A stretch of 64,000 nt of DNA. It comes from Algoriphagus sp. GTDB lineage: Bacteria; Bacteroidota; Bacteroidia; Cytophagales; Cyclobacteriaceae. Under the pieces are notes generated by a model. It did not search any database, was not told the DNA's origin, and worked only from the letters and a program-made list of their open reading frames with translations. The position numbers and the translations under genes were made by a program. Location: assembly GCF_013373065.1 (NCBI RefSeq), contig NZ_JABXIN010000011.1:1-64000 (forward strand), read 5' to 3'. Positions 26,688 through 32,580 of the stretch are shown here, piece by piece (position 1 is the stretch's first letter; the number at the start of each line of letters is the position of its first letter).

Positions 26688-27785
26688 TTAAAGCACACCT
26701 TTGGTGCTTGGAAGCTGATTAATGGTCTGTGGATCTCGTTTGACAGCCATTTTGATAGCTCTTGCCAGACCTTTGAAAATCGCTTCAATTTTGTGGTGTT
26801 CGTTATCTCCCTCCACTTTGATATTTAAGTTGCATTTGGCAGTATCGGAAAATGATTTGAAGAAATGATAAAACATTTCAGTGGGCATATCTCCGATTTT
26901 TTCCCGCTTAAATTCTGCATCCCAAACGATCCAAGGCCTTCCTCCAAAATCAATCGCAACTTGTGCCAATGCATCATCCATGGGCAAGAGGAATCCATAT
27001 CGGTAAATGCCTTTTTTATCGCCCAAGGCTTTTAAATAGGCCTCACCTAAGGCTAAAGCAGTATCTTCAATCGTGTGGTGCTCATCAATATGAAGGTCTC
27101 CTTTAACTTCGATTTCCAGATCTGTGGCTCCATGTTTTCCTAATTGCTCCAACATGTGGTCAAAAAAGCTCAGGCCTGTATTTATTTTGCATTTCCCGCT
27201 TCCGTCCAAATTCAGGTGGATACGGATATCGGTTTCTGAGGTAGTCCGTGTAACCGTTGCTTTTCGAGCTGGTATTTTCAGAAATTGATAAATTTCATCC
27301 CAATCGAATGTTGAAAGGACCGCATCCTCGTGAGGCTCTCCTAGAAAAATAGCCTTTGCTCCTAAATTTTGAGCTAATTGAATGTCGGTAATCCTGTCCC
27401 CAATGACATAAGAGTTAGCTAAATCATAAGCATCCGAAAAGTATTCTTGAAGCAGGCCTGTTCGAGGTTTTCTGGTAGGTGCATTTTCGTGTTCAAAAGA
27501 CCGATCCACATGAATAGCCTTAAAAAATACATTTTCTTGCTCCAAGGTCTTTAGCATCTTGTACTGAGCAGGCCAAAAATCTTGTTCAGGAAAGGATTCT
27601 GTACCTAAGCCATCTTGATTGGTTACCATCACCAATTCAAAGTCAGTTTCTTCCGCAATTTTGCGAAGGTTAGAAATTGCTTTTGGAATGAATTCTAATT
27701 TTTCAAGGCTATCGACTTGAAAGTCCGTGGGTGGTTCCTTGATTATAGTCCCGTCCCGATCGATGAATAAAATTTTCTTTTTCAT
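26688..27785 (-). CDS. hisB: Bifunctional histidinol-phosphatase / imidazoleglycerol-phosphate dehydratase
   Basis: HAD motif [13 protein letters not shown] motifs [30 protein letters not shown]. Confidence 0.96.
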
Positions 27786-27802: not shown

Positions 27803-28873
27803 TTAATTCTCAATCCCAATTTCTTCAGCTACTCTTTTCATGGTTTTAATCAATGCTTCGTTTTCGGATTTCTTCCCGATAGTAATTCGCAAACAATCCT
27901 CGCAAAGTTGAACCTTGGAACGGTTCCGTACAATTATCTTTTGATCGATTAATTGATTATAAAATTCTGTTGCCTTCGGTACTTTCACCAAAAAAAAATT
28001 GGCATTGGATGGATATATTTTTTGGACGAAATCAAGGTTTCTCAATTCATATTCCAAGCTATTCTTTTCTTCAAGGATAGTTTGAATCATGGCCTTGACC
28101 TTCTTTTCATTCTGAAGTGCCTTCAGTACATACTCTTGTGTCAGTCCTGAAATATTATACGGTGGTTTAATCCGGTTCAAAATTCGAATCAGCTCTTCAG
28201 AAGCAAAAGCCATCCCTAGCCGGAGGGAAGCCAGGCCCCATGCTTTCGAAAGGGTTTGCATTACCAATAAGTTCGGAAACTTATCTAACTCCAGTGTAAA
28301 ACTTGGCTCATCATTAAAATCAATGTAGGCTTCATCAATGACTACCAATCCTTGAAATTGGTTTAGAATTTCATAAATCGAATCCCGCTTGATTTTATTT
28401 CCGCTTGGATTGTTCGGAGAGCAGATGAAAATAATTTTGGTATGTTCATCTACCTGATGTAATACTTCTTTGGGATCGATTTGAAATTCTTCTGTTAAAG
28501 AAACCTTTTTTGTAAGGACATCATTTATAGCCGCACTGACTTCATACATCCCATAAGTAGGGGGAAGAAGAATGACATTGTCTTTTCCGGGATTACAAAA
28601 TGCCCTAAATAAAAGGTCAATGGCTTCATCAGATCCGTTTCCCAAGAAGATCTGCTCAGGGCGAACTCCCTTGATTTTGGAGAGCTTCTTTTTAATCTCC
28701 CATTGATAAGGGTCTGGGTAGCGATTGAAGTCTTCTTCAGTAGCAGACCCTAGAGGGTTTTCATTGGCATCCAGGAATATTCCTTCTGTTCCGGTATACT
28801 CATCCCGAGCTGAAGTATAGGGCTTCAAGGAAGCAATATGTGGCCTAAGTAAAGAATTTAAATTAAATGCCAT
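27803..28873 (-). CDS. hisC: Histidinol-phosphate aminotransferase
   Basis: LDANENPLG, NGSDEAIDLL, CSPNNPSGN, QTLSKAWGLASLRLG. Confidence 0.95.
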   Translation of the reverse strand: MAFNLNSLLRPHIASLKPYTSARDEYTGTEGIFLDANENPLGSATEEDFNRYPDPYQWEIKKKLSKIKGVRPEQIFLGNGSDEAIDLLFRAFCNPGKDNVILLPPTYGMYEVSAAINDVLTKKVSLTEEFQIDPKEVLHQVDEHTKIIFICSPNNPSGNKIKRDSIYEILNQFQGLVVIDEAYIDFNDEPSFTLELDKFPNLLVMQTLSKAWGLASLRLGMAFASEELIRILNRIKPPYNISGLTQEYVLKALQNEKKVKAMIQTILEEKNSLEYELRNLDFVQKIYPSNANFFLVKVPKATEFYNQLIDQKIIVRNRSKVQLCEDCLRITIGKKSENEALIKTMKRVAEEIGIEN

Positions 28874-30165
28874 TAGGAATTCTTTTTCAGGTAGTTAAGA
28901 CGAACAGAAACGGCATTCTTGTGAGCTTGGAGTAATTCTTCCTGAGCCATGACTTCTACAGTCGGCCCTAAGTTTTTCAATCCTTCTGGACTTAATTTTT
29001 GATAAGTGATTTTCTTAACAAAACTATCCAAAGAAACACCGCTATAATTGCGTGCATAGCCATATGTCGGAAGAGTGTGATTAGTCCCTGATGCGTAATC
29101 TCCTACTGACTCTGGGGTATATTTTCCAATAAAAACAGAACCGGCATTGACGATTCCTTGGACAGCCTCTTCTTCTTGTTCCACGCTGATGATCAAGTGT
29201 TCCGGTGCATAGAAGTTGATCAAGTCCAAGGCAGTTTTTAGATCATCTAGAACGATAGCAACCGAGTTTTCCAATGACTTCTTGGCGATATCCTTTCTGG
29301 GTAGTTGTTCTACTTGAACTTCAATTTCCTTAAGAACCTTTTTTGCAAATTTTTGGCTGTGCGTCACAAGGACTACTTGGGAATCAACTCCATGTTCCGC
29401 CTGAGATAACAAATCCGCCGCGACGAAAGCTGGAATAGCAGTATCATCTGCATAGACTAAAACCTCCGAAGGACCTGCTGGCATATCAATAGCTACTCCA
29501 TAACTCGTTGCAAGTTGCTTGGCTGCCGTAACGAATTGGTTACCCGGTCCAAAAATCTTATCGACTTGAGGAACAGATTCTGTCCCAAAAGTCATGGCGG
29601 CAATTGCCTGGGCACCTCCAGATTTGATGATTTTATTGATTCCTATCAAATCAGCTGTAAAAAGGATTGCCGGATGGATTTTTCCCTCTTCATTAGGAGG
29701 AGTACAAAGAACGATTTCCTTGCATCCAGCCAATTTTGCTGGAATACCAAGCATGAGCACTGTACTGAAAAGGGGAGCTGTTCCTCCAGGGATATAAAGG
29801 CCTACCCGTTGAATAGGGACACTTTTTCGTCTACAAATAACTCCCGGCATAACCTCTTCCACAAGTTCCGCTTGTATTTGCGCACCGTGAAAGCGTTCAA
29901 TATTTCGTTTGGCGGTAAGAATAGCATCCTTTAATTCAGGAGAAAGGGCTGAAGCTGCAGCTTTAATTTCGGATTGATCCACTCGGAGCTCTTGAAGCTC
30001 TACATGATCAAACTCATAGGCATATTTGATCAGTGCTTTATCTCCTTTTCGTTCTACTTTACGAAGGATAGGCTTGACAATCCGGTTTATTTTTTTGGTT
30101 TTGAAAACTGGCCTCGCCAATTCCTCTTTCCAAGTAGAAACATCTGGGTTGATGAGAATTTTCAT
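28873..30165 (-). CDS. hisD: Histidinol dehydrogenase
   Basis: QRVGLYIPGGTAPLFSTVLM, GPGNQFVTAAKQ, PAGPSEVLV, GDYASGTNHTLPTYG. Confidence 0.96.
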   Translation of the reverse strand: MKILINPDVSTWKEELARPVFKTKKINRIVKPILRKVERKGDKALIKYAYEFDHVELQELRVDQSEIKAAASALSPELKDAILTAKRNIERFHGAQIQAELVEEVMPGVICRRKSVPIQRVGLYIPGGTAPLFSTVLMLGIPAKLAGCKEIVLCTPPNEEGKIHPAILFTADLIGINKIIKSGGAQAIAAMTFGTESVPQVDKIFGPGNQFVTAAKQLATSYGVAIDMPAGPSEVLVYADDTAIPAFVAADLLSQAEHGVDSQVVLVTHSQKFAKKVLKEIEVQVEQLPRKDIAKKSLENSVAIVLDDLKTALDLINFYAPEHLIISVEQEEEAVQGIVNAGSVFIGKYTPESVGDYASGTNHTLPTYGYARNYSGVSLDSFVKKITYQKLSPEGLKNLGPTVEVMAQEELLQAHKNAVSVRLNYLKKNS

Positions 30166-30203: not shown

Positions 30204-31064
30204 TTATATCACCATTTTTTCGATGGGAACTACCAGAATTCCTTCAGCACCAGCGGCTCGGAGTTCTTCGATATTCTCCCAGAATTGATCCTCACTCAAA
30301 ACCGAATGAACGGATGACCAGCCTTCCTGTGCTAATGGAAGAATCGTTGGACTTCGCATTCCTGGAATCAAGCTTATTATTTTTTCTAATGCATGATTTG
30401 GAGCATTTAGAAGCACATATTTATTGCTTTTTCCTTTTTGTACTGCATTGATACGGAACAAAAGTTTTTCTACAATCGCTTGCTTCCAGTCTTCCAGATT
30501 TTCATTGGCAATTAGTACTGCCTCCGAATAGAAGATTTCCTCAACCTCCTTAAGCCCGTTCATCATCAAGGTTGAGCCAGAGCTTACTATATCACAGATA
30601 CCTTCTGCCAATCCGATGCTCGGTGCAATTTCTACGGAACCGCTAATTTCATGGATATCTGCCTGAACCCCTTTTTGCTCGAGGTAATCTTGAAGAATTT
30701 TAGGATAGGAAGTTGCAATGCTTTTTCCCTGAAAATAATCAAGCCCAATATAGGTTTGACCTTTAGGGATGGCTAGTGAAAGTCTACATTTTGAAAAACC
30801 CAGTTTTTTGAGGGTTTGGACTTTTTTGTCCTTTTCAACTAATTCATTTTCTCCAACAATACCCAAATCAGCGACCCCATCTGCCACATAGCCAGGGATA
30901 TCATCATCCCGAAGGAACAAAAATTCGATAGGGAAATTGGTTGAAGTAGATTTGAGTTTACCGGTTCCGTTGTAAAATTTGATCCCACATTCCTTGATCA
31001 ATTTCAACGAATCCTCTGATAGTCGTCCGCTTTTTTGAACAGCGATACGGATAATTTTTTCCAT
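30204..31064 (-). CDS. hisG: ATP phosphoribosyltransferase (long form)
   Basis: IRIAVQKSGRLSEDSLKLI, DLGIVGENEL, DIVSSGSTLMMNGL; C-terminal regulatory region. Confidence 0.95.
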   Translation of the reverse strand: MEKIIRIAVQKSGRLSEDSLKLIKECGIKFYNGTGKLKSTSTNFPIEFLFLRDDDIPGYVADGVADLGIVGENELVEKDKKVQTLKKLGFSKCRLSLAIPKGQTYIGLDYFQGKSIATSYPKILQDYLEQKGVQADIHEISGSVEIAPSIGLAEGICDIVSSGSTLMMNGLKEVEEIFYSEAVLIANENLEDWKQAIVEKLLFRINAVQKGKSNKYVLLNAPNHALEKIISLIPGMRSPTILPLAQEGWSSVHSVLSEDQFWENIEELRAAGAEGILVVPIEKMVI

Positions 31065-31107
31065 GAGTCTAAAATACGCTAAGAAATAAACTTGATGAAT
31101 GAAATTT

Positions 31108-31141
31108 GGTGAAAAGTGGAATCCTTGATTCCAGAGTCACC
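31108..31141 (-). promoter_or_regulatory. Stem-loop in the hisG leader (candidate attenuator hairpin)
   Basis: RNA sense: GGUGA-CUC-UGGAAUC-AAG-GAUUCCA-CUUU-UCACC, a 7-bp inner and 5-bp outer stem. Confidence 0.6.
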
Positions 31142-31158: not shown

Positions 31159-31177
31159 ATTCCTCCTTAAGAGGAAT
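31159..31177 (-). promoter_or_regulatory. Stem-loop overlapping the end of the His-rich leader ORF
   Basis: RNA sense: AUUCCUC-UUAAG-GAGGAAU, 7-bp perfect stem. Confidence 0.55.
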
Positions 31178-31250
31178 GATGGAAATGATGCACATGCACC
31201 TGATGGTGATGTGAAGAAAAAATGGCGATATAAATGCCCTGAGCTTTCAT
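31167..31250 (-). CDS. hisL: Histidine-rich leader peptide MKAQGIYIAIFSSHHHQVHVHHFHHSS (candidate his operon attenuator)
   Basis: 27-codon ATG..TAA ORF 102 nt upstream of hisG; 8 His among 12 codons; absent from the ORF track because of its size. Confidence 0.88.
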   Translation of the reverse strand: MKAQGIYIAIFSSHHHQVHVHHFHHSS

Positions 31251-31259
31251 TTACGGTGA

Positions 31260-31290
31260 CAAAGTTAACCACAGGGATGAAACATGCAAA
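31260..31290 (-). promoter_or_regulatory. Bacteroidota-type sigma-A promoter for the his leader
   Basis: Minus strand TTTG-N19-TAACTTTG, a full match to the TTTG/TAnnTTTG consensus, ending 9 nt before the leader ATG. Confidence 0.75.
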
Positions 31291-31311: not shown

Positions 31312-32580
31312 TTAATTGATGGGTGGTTGCCAAGGGCCATAAACTGCCTCTCTAAATGCCTTGTGAAGGCCGATTCCATCATAGGGAGTCAACTGTACAA
31401 ATAAAATTGCAATCAATTCATTTTTTGGATCGATAAAAAACAAGGTGCTTAAAGCTCCATCCCAAAAGAATTCGCCCACTTCTCCTTGGTTTTCCTGCGC
31501 ATTTTGTGGGGGAGCAATTCGTACTGCAAAGTCGATCCCAAAGCCTACCTGTCCACGATGAGGTAACCAAGAACGTTCCTTTATTGAGTCTGGAAGGTGA
31601 TTGGTTCGCATCAATGCAACAGAAGCTGGTTGAAGAATCGCTTGGTTTTCGTGTTGGCCTTCATTCAAAAGCATTTTAGCAAACTTCAAATAATCATCAA
31701 TAGTACTGCTCAGACCGAAGCCTCCGGGGGTCAAAGGCCAATGATTGTAACTGAAACGGTAGGCTATCGAGTCGTCTTGGCGAGCTACAAATCCATCTGC
31801 TTGCCGCTCATAAACAGCTGCCATTCGATCTCTGAATTCTTCTGGAACATAGTACATGGTTTCCTCCATCCCTAAGGGATCCAGTATTTCTTTTTGTAAA
31901 AATTCATCATAGGGCATTCCTGCTAGTTTTTCAACCAAATAGGCTTGAATATCCACGCATAGGCCATATTCCCATTGAGTGCCTGGTTGAAACCAAAGAG
32001 GAGTACTCCCTATTTTTTCAGCCATACTGGCTAAAGTATTGTTATAATTTCGGGCATCTTTTTCCTTCATTATTTCACTCAAACCGGGAATATTATCCCG
32101 GTTTGGAAAGCCGGCCGTGTGACGGGTAATATCCCTAACACTTATGGATCGATCAGCTTCTGTCAGAATCATTTGACCGTTTTCATCCACTCCTTGATAC
32201 ACTTCCATATTGGAAAATTCCGGTAAATATTTTTCCAATGGATCATCCAATTCGAACATTCCCCGCTCATAAAGCTTCATCAACGCAGTGCCTGTAATGG
32301 GTTTGGTCATGGAATAAATCTGAACCAGCGTTTGACGTTCCATGGGTTTTTGCTTTTCCCGATCGGCATAGCCATATGCCTGAAAATATCGTTCTTCTCC
32401 TTTTTCATAAATCAAAGCAGAAATTCCAGCAACTTTACCTGATTCAATAAAGGACTTTAAGGTACTGTCGACTCGGACTTGAGCAACCTCATCAAAAACT
32501 AGTTTTGTGGATTGGGGAGAAGAACCACATGCTGTTAGAATTAATTGAAGGAGAAGGATGAAGTAAACCGCGCGGAACAT
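31312..32580 (-). CDS. Serine hydrolase (class C beta-lactamase-like), lipoprotein
   Basis: Lipobox LILTACG; SMTKPITGTALM (SxxK), YGL; HRGQVGFG region. Confidence 0.88.
   Translation of the reverse strand: MFRAVYFILLLQLILTACGSSPQSTKLVFDEVAQVRVDSTLKSFIESGKVAGISALIYEKGEERYFQAYGYADREKQKPMERQTLVQIYSMTKPITGTALMKLYERGMFELDDPLEKYLPEFSNMEVYQGVDENGQMILTEADRSISVRDITRHTAGFPNRDNIPGLSEIMKEKDARNYNNTLASMAEKIGSTPLWFQPGTQWEYGLCVDIQAYLVEKLAGMPYDEFLQKEILDPLGMEETMYYVPEEFRDRMAAVYERQADGFVARQDDSIAYRFSYNHWPLTPGGFGLSSTIDDYLKFAKMLLNEGQHENQAILQPASVALMRTNHLPDSIKERSWLPHRGQVGFGIDFAVRIAPPQNAQENQGEVGEFFWDGALSTLFFIDPKNELIAILFVQLTPYDGIGLHKAFREAVYGPWQPPIN

Follow-up and report, generated by a model that had tools for sequence, protein, structure and literature searches.

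A putative His-tRNA-sensing leader ORF lacking a recognizable intrinsic terminator upstream of hisGDCB in Algoriphagus and related Bacteroidota

The his leader of enterobacteria, hisL (Rfam His_leader), is a short ORF rich in His codons, located upstream of hisG on the same strand and accompanied by nearby hairpins. A second point of reference is tnaC of Escherichia coli, a Rho-dependent system in which the leader stop codon, or a site next to it, is where the ribosome acts, and no intrinsic terminator separates the leader from the first gene. Attenuators in Bacteroidetes/Chlorobi are reportedly mentioned by Vitreschak et al. 2004, and part of the findings presented below may have an earlier description, for example there. 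In Flavobacterium psychrophilum and other Flavobacteriaceae a structured 5' element is found upstream of hisG, and leader-peptide attenuation has been proposed upstream of amino-acid operons in F. psychrophilum (PMC9723704); likewise, Rfam includes a Bacteroidetes motif, Bacteroid-trp (PMC2864571). In mycobacteria, the leader ORFs of cysteine genes carry cognate codons near the stop and no conserved terminator hairpin, and Rho was proposed for them in 2005 (PMC1262725); according to Canestrari 2020, as cited in PMC9094748 and PMC13236596, these ORFs are leaderless, and those of M. smegmatis are described as translation attenuation. A search of the freely accessible literature yielded no paper on his leaders in Bacteroides.

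The locus described here lies in a stretch of 64,000 nucleotides from Algoriphagus sp. (contig NZ_JABXIN010000011.1), hereafter the window, and shares with enterobacterial hisL all of the features listed above. Unlike hisL, no intrinsic terminator or antiterminator was found for the window leader, its conserved His codons adjoin the stop, the stop codon is placed in a hairpin loop, the transcript probably has a near-leaderless start, and there is no Rfam match. It belongs to the same phylum and concerns the same gene as the Flavobacterium element, and it shares with the mycobacterial cysteine leaders, which differ in phylum and amino acid, the cognate codons near the stop and the lack of a conserved terminator hairpin. 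As in tnaC, the ribosome is proposed to act at or near the leader stop with no intrinsic terminator before the first gene; in contrast, tnaC senses free tryptophan via an arrest peptide, whereas the window leader keeps its codons while the neighbouring residues vary.

Table 1. Features of the leader region and the hisGDCB operon, in window coordinates.
Feature	Position	Strand	Basis
hisL-like leader ORF, 27 codons, ATG..TAA, MKAQGIYIAIFSSHHHQVHVHHFHHSS	31167..31250	-	sequence and conservation
His-codon block HHHQVHVHHFHH, 8 His in 12 codons	31176..31211	-	sequence
HHFHH, family-conserved part of the His-codon block	31190..31176	-	66-leader comparison
hisG, ATP phosphoribosyltransferase, first structural gene	30204..31064	-	TIGR00070 and TIGR03455 over cut-off
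hisD	28873..30165	-	TIGR00069 over cut-off
hisC	27803..28873	-	TIGR01141 over cut-off
hisB, bifunctional	26688..27785	-	NF003937 over cut-off
TTTG, candidate -33 promoter element, spacer of 19 nt to the -7 element	31287..31290	-	sequence
TAACTTTG, candidate -7 promoter element, 9 nt between its end and the leader ATG	31260..31267	-	sequence and 66-leader comparison
P1, stop-codon hairpin ATTCCTCT-TAA-GGAGGAAT	31159..31177	-	folding; pairing kept across genera though stem sequences differ
P2, hairpin GGTGA...TTCACC, no T-run after it	31108..31141	-	folding and alignment
Hairpin within the His codons, CACATCACC/GGTG.ATGTG	31191..31213	-	predicted in the window's closest relatives

The original prediction of a His-rich mini-ORF on the minus strand, with eight His among twelve codons and 102 nt between its TAA and the hisG ATG (31064), is borne out by the sequence, and NCBIfam models confirm hisG, hisD, hisC and bifunctional hisB downstream (Table 1). 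A stretch of 8 His in 12 codons is unique to the leader when all frames of the 64 kb window are considered, and when the entire window was resampled 60 times under a first-order Markov model, no 12 codons contained more than 6 His; together with the conservation described below, this rules out a chance ORF. The ORF had also been said to end just before a hairpin, which needs correcting: the first hairpin, P1, encloses the stop codon itself, and the second, P2, is located downstream. The gene directly upstream (31312-32580, minus strand) encodes a serine hydrolase/beta-lactamase-family protein, scoring under the NCBIfam cut-offs shown.

The closest named relatives of the window belong to Algoriphagus, HisG of A. 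kandeliae being 93% identical. Almost every one of the 78 named loci whose upstream region is available has a His-rich mini-ORF about 100 nt upstream of hisG, and most of these ORFs end in HHxHHSS. For closer comparison, 66 distinct leaders of Algoriphagus and related Cyclobacteriaceae were taken, namely those whose peptide ends in HHS or has a single residue after it. Their length is exactly 27 codons in 56 cases, and His occupies codons -7 and -6 in 64 leaders each and codons -4 and -3 in all 66, with CAC replacing CAT at 20 conserved His codons. The codon in the middle of HHxHH (-5) encodes F, I, L, M, S, V or G, the peptide outside HHxHHS is variable, and the last residue varies too; in some relatives the leader shrinks to about 11 codons, and its location directly before hisG does not change. 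Every leader of the set has TCC as codon -2; HHS is imposed by the selection of the leaders whereas the choice of TCC is not, and this constancy, with the few changes of the last residue, would fit base-pairing in P1. Since the ORF is conserved and its His codons change synonymously, we infer that the leader is translated, and the overall pattern is that of a putative codon sensor. Action as an arrest peptide was rejected, because residues differ between leaders in the middle of HHxHH and at the last position, so that conservation applies to codons and not to a peptide motif. Absence of the mini-ORF from close relatives had been named beforehand as grounds for rejecting the prediction; the 66 distinct leaders show the opposite.

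The promoter consensus of Bacteroidetes is TTTG-N19-TAnnTTTG. Upstream of the leader ATG, TAnnTTTG is present in 65 of the 66 distinct leaders, at 7-10 nt in 64 of them and at 16 nt in one, and this short distance makes it probable that transcription begins very near the ATG, the 5' end of the mRNA lying within a few nucleotides of it in a near-leaderless arrangement. A second promoter directly before hisG was rejected, TAnnTTTG occurring there in only 2 of 79 loci. Just upstream of the hisG ATG (window 31065-31095 and relatives) a conserved CTTAGCGTAACTTG / ACTAAACGTATATTGC resembles a weak promoter box.

The leader region folds better than its shuffles (z -4.0), and in 40 aligned relatives 91.7% of the cells of the P1 and P2 pairs are paired; neither the 500 shuffles nor any slid structure reaches their covariation score. 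The P1 stems of different genera (ATTCCTC/GAGGAAT, ATTGCT/AGCAAT, TGTGC/GCACA, ATCTCTC/GAGAGAT, ATTCCCT/GGGGAAT) differ in sequence, which indicates that the pairing rather than the sequence is kept. We scored stems holding the leader stop in their loop against shuffles of the post-stop sequence (pass at p<=0.05). Within the window's family, 20 of 34 terminator-less genera pass and 14 do not, against none of the 16 terminator-bearing genera, in a test designed after P1 had been seen in the window's relatives; the more independent Bacteroidales-like set and controls gave 5/15 for the Bacteroidales-like leaders and 3/121 for ordinary gene stops (two backgrounds), and terminator-bearing leaders across the phylum gave 1/39. 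A covariance-model search for the same element within the genome matched only the leader site, with a narrow model that misses most other genera of the family. In folding models with an assumed ribosome footprint of -15 to +13, P1 is closed without a ribosome or with a ribosome at the first His of HHxHH, and open with a ribosome farther on, at the final two His codons or at the stop, while P2 is the same in all states; P1 is thus the only element whose predicted folding depends on ribosome position. Several smaller observations concern these hairpins. Most Algoriphagus, though not the window, share an almost unchanging P2 loop, GATGAYAGGGATTC, on a stem that varies (alignment A1); AGGGAT of this loop could pair with AUUCCU of the last leader codons; in locus L139, GGTGAGCCGATGG after the leader resembles GGTGAAGCCGATGA of the Algoriphagus P2, and P2 may be a remnant of an antiterminator. 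At 31162-31168 of the window, the stop codon and the right arm of P1 form AAGGAGG, a perfect Shine-Dalgarno sequence that has no nearby downstream start and that most Algoriphagus have not retained.

These comparisons give good support to a leader that senses His-tRNA for hisGDCB, and the likely explanation of the locus is a leader-peptide sensor in which ribosomes stall for scarce charged His-tRNA and the output is non-classical. The sensor codons and the promoter box rest on comparative sequence, and from there we infer translation, stalling and the start site. Among the other explanations, translational attenuation is the least improbable, although still unlikely: the hisG start (AUGGAAA) would be held in a helix with the His codons (UUUCCAU) until a stalled ribosome freed it. 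A long-range helix of this kind is predicted by RNAalifold in 3 of 4 clades, and CAU is the complement of AUG; nevertheless, predicted accessibility of the hisG start is nearly constant over 65 loci (mean 0.44 with the leader free, 0.48 with a ribosome stalled at the first His), and with an effect this small occlusion of the start is not supported. Moreover, several relatives whose hisG starts with ATGAAT keep the UUUCCAU codons, hence the pairing does not covary.

A slightly poorer case can be made for a classical four-segment attenuator, in which P1 would be the 1:2 hairpin, P2 would be or contain the terminator, and an antiterminator would compete with it. The geometry of P1 is that of a 1:2 hairpin, and in trpL the stop codon lies in the loop of that hairpin; in addition, GGAAU of P1 and AUUCC of P2 are complementary in the window, and other genera of the same family look classical (L166, L167; 16 genera). 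However, no T-run terminator was found between the leader and hisG in the window or its relatives, and with no T-run after it P2 was rejected as a canonical terminator. The right arm of P1 has no excess of downstream complementarity (median shuffle p 0.75 in the family set and 0.91 in the others), and for the left arm 5 of 20 cases reached p<=0.05 with no consistent partner. Since P2 is not switched in any modelled ribosome state and the right arm of P1 lacks an excess partner, a four-segment switch is not supported. P1 was likewise rejected as a terminator: a U-rich stretch follows it in some relatives and is absent in the window and others, and its position is such that it would form when the ribosome is absent or has stalled early, which does not suit a biosynthetic operon. 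A search of Rfam returned neither His_leader nor any other family at the gathering score, nor at E up to 10. The original prediction had compared the locus to the enterobacterial layout; its His-sensing part is strongly supported by conservation, whereas the layout does not hold, lacking a T-run terminator, an antiterminator partner and an Rfam match and having His codons that adjoin the stop. That the peptide itself acts, for instance as a small metal-binding protein and not as a regulator, is highly improbable, its His-rich composition being set against free replacement outside HHxHHS, the short forms in relatives and the constant place before hisG.

The same genome contains leaders of the canonical kind. 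The trp leader (L148, trpE; MKTTTNKYWWWHLNSFPGKVQQALA) is rich in Trp codons, the ilv leader (L146, ilvD; MNRNVFLLSIIILLGF) in Ile/Leu/Val codons and the thr leader (L149, thrA) in Thr/Ile/Met codons, and each is followed by a hairpin and a T-run. Canonical attenuators thus seem to be in use elsewhere in this organism, in which leader attenuation is probably a working strategy. The thr leader also has a stop-codon hairpin, TACGGGG-TAA-TCCCGTA, together with its terminator.

Across Bacteroidota, two types of his leader can be distinguished by comparison of their sequences: type I, with an intrinsic terminator and a His run about 9 codons before the stop, and type II, with no terminator, His codons usually few codons from the stop and often a stop-codon hairpin. 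The leader of the window is assigned to type II. Many other Bacteroidota loci are of type I with a canonical T-run terminator, unlike the Cyclobacteriaceae form of the window. The last His codon lies a median of 7 codons from the stop in leaders with a T-run terminator (n=39) and 2 in those without (n=26; p 1.8e-8), a contrast that gives p 5e-4 by family means; when the end of the last HH pair is taken instead and terminators are called by another rule, the two medians become 8.5 and 4 (p 5.5e-4). Within the window's family, sampled as one genome per genus, the medians are 9.5 for the 16 terminator genera and 2 for the 34 terminator-less genera, with a p-value of 8e-8 that, as for all p-values within the family, takes no account of relatedness. 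HisG identity to that of the window is at most 64% in all 16 terminator genera and at least 66% in 33 of the 34 others, and because it separates the two sets in this way the change within the family is probably one evolutionary transition. Bacteroidales-like genomes form a second, separate terminator-less group, the family and order names of the relatives' genomes being our reading from kinship ranks. Their leaders (L116, L119, L124-L126, L128, L129, L132, L134-L136, L192, L193, L199, L208) have, for the most part, a short spacer poor in G, and their His codons reach the stop or come close to it.

Returning to the leader-peptide sensor, transcription would start a few nucleotides from the leader ATG and ribosomes would translate the 27 codons. 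With charged His-tRNA scarce, the ribosome would stall on the His codons; with histidine plentiful, it would reach the stop codon and then leave, leaving about 100 nt of untranslated spacer open to factor-dependent termination by Rho, which a stalled ribosome would prevent, as in tnaC. What remains is the view that a ribosome at the leader end would protect or expose something adjacent. Rho-dependent termination on the spacer is, by analogy with tnaC as the simplest precedent and with the 2005 proposal for mycobacterial cys leaders, the most likely of the possible output steps, and we propose it only tentatively. The C/G ratio of the window spacer is ordinary, about 31% of background segments being as high or higher, and a rut-like composition is not evident in it, as it is not unusually C-rich or G-poor; most Bacteroidales-like spacers are G-poor and C-rich and fall in the top 2.5-10% of the local background. 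With similar reserve, we hypothesize that Bacteroidota could possess two mechanistically different his attenuators, the second of which, in Cyclobacteriaceae and Bacteroidales-like genomes, would have no terminator/antiterminator switch, a ribosome stalled on His codons at the leader end acting via the hairpin around the stop codon and the spacer beside it, through Rho or another factor.

As far as the literature was searched, the Cyclobacteriaceae leader family, the terminator-less type, its link to stop-proximal His codons and the stop-codon hairpin are new. These findings extend the range of leader peptides that sense amino acids to much of Bacteroidota and suggest that the sensing half of an attenuator, the His codons, can persist without the terminator half, whose absence goes with a shift of the His codons to the stop and a hairpin around the stop codon. 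Searches for attenuators that are based on terminators would miss leaders of this type.
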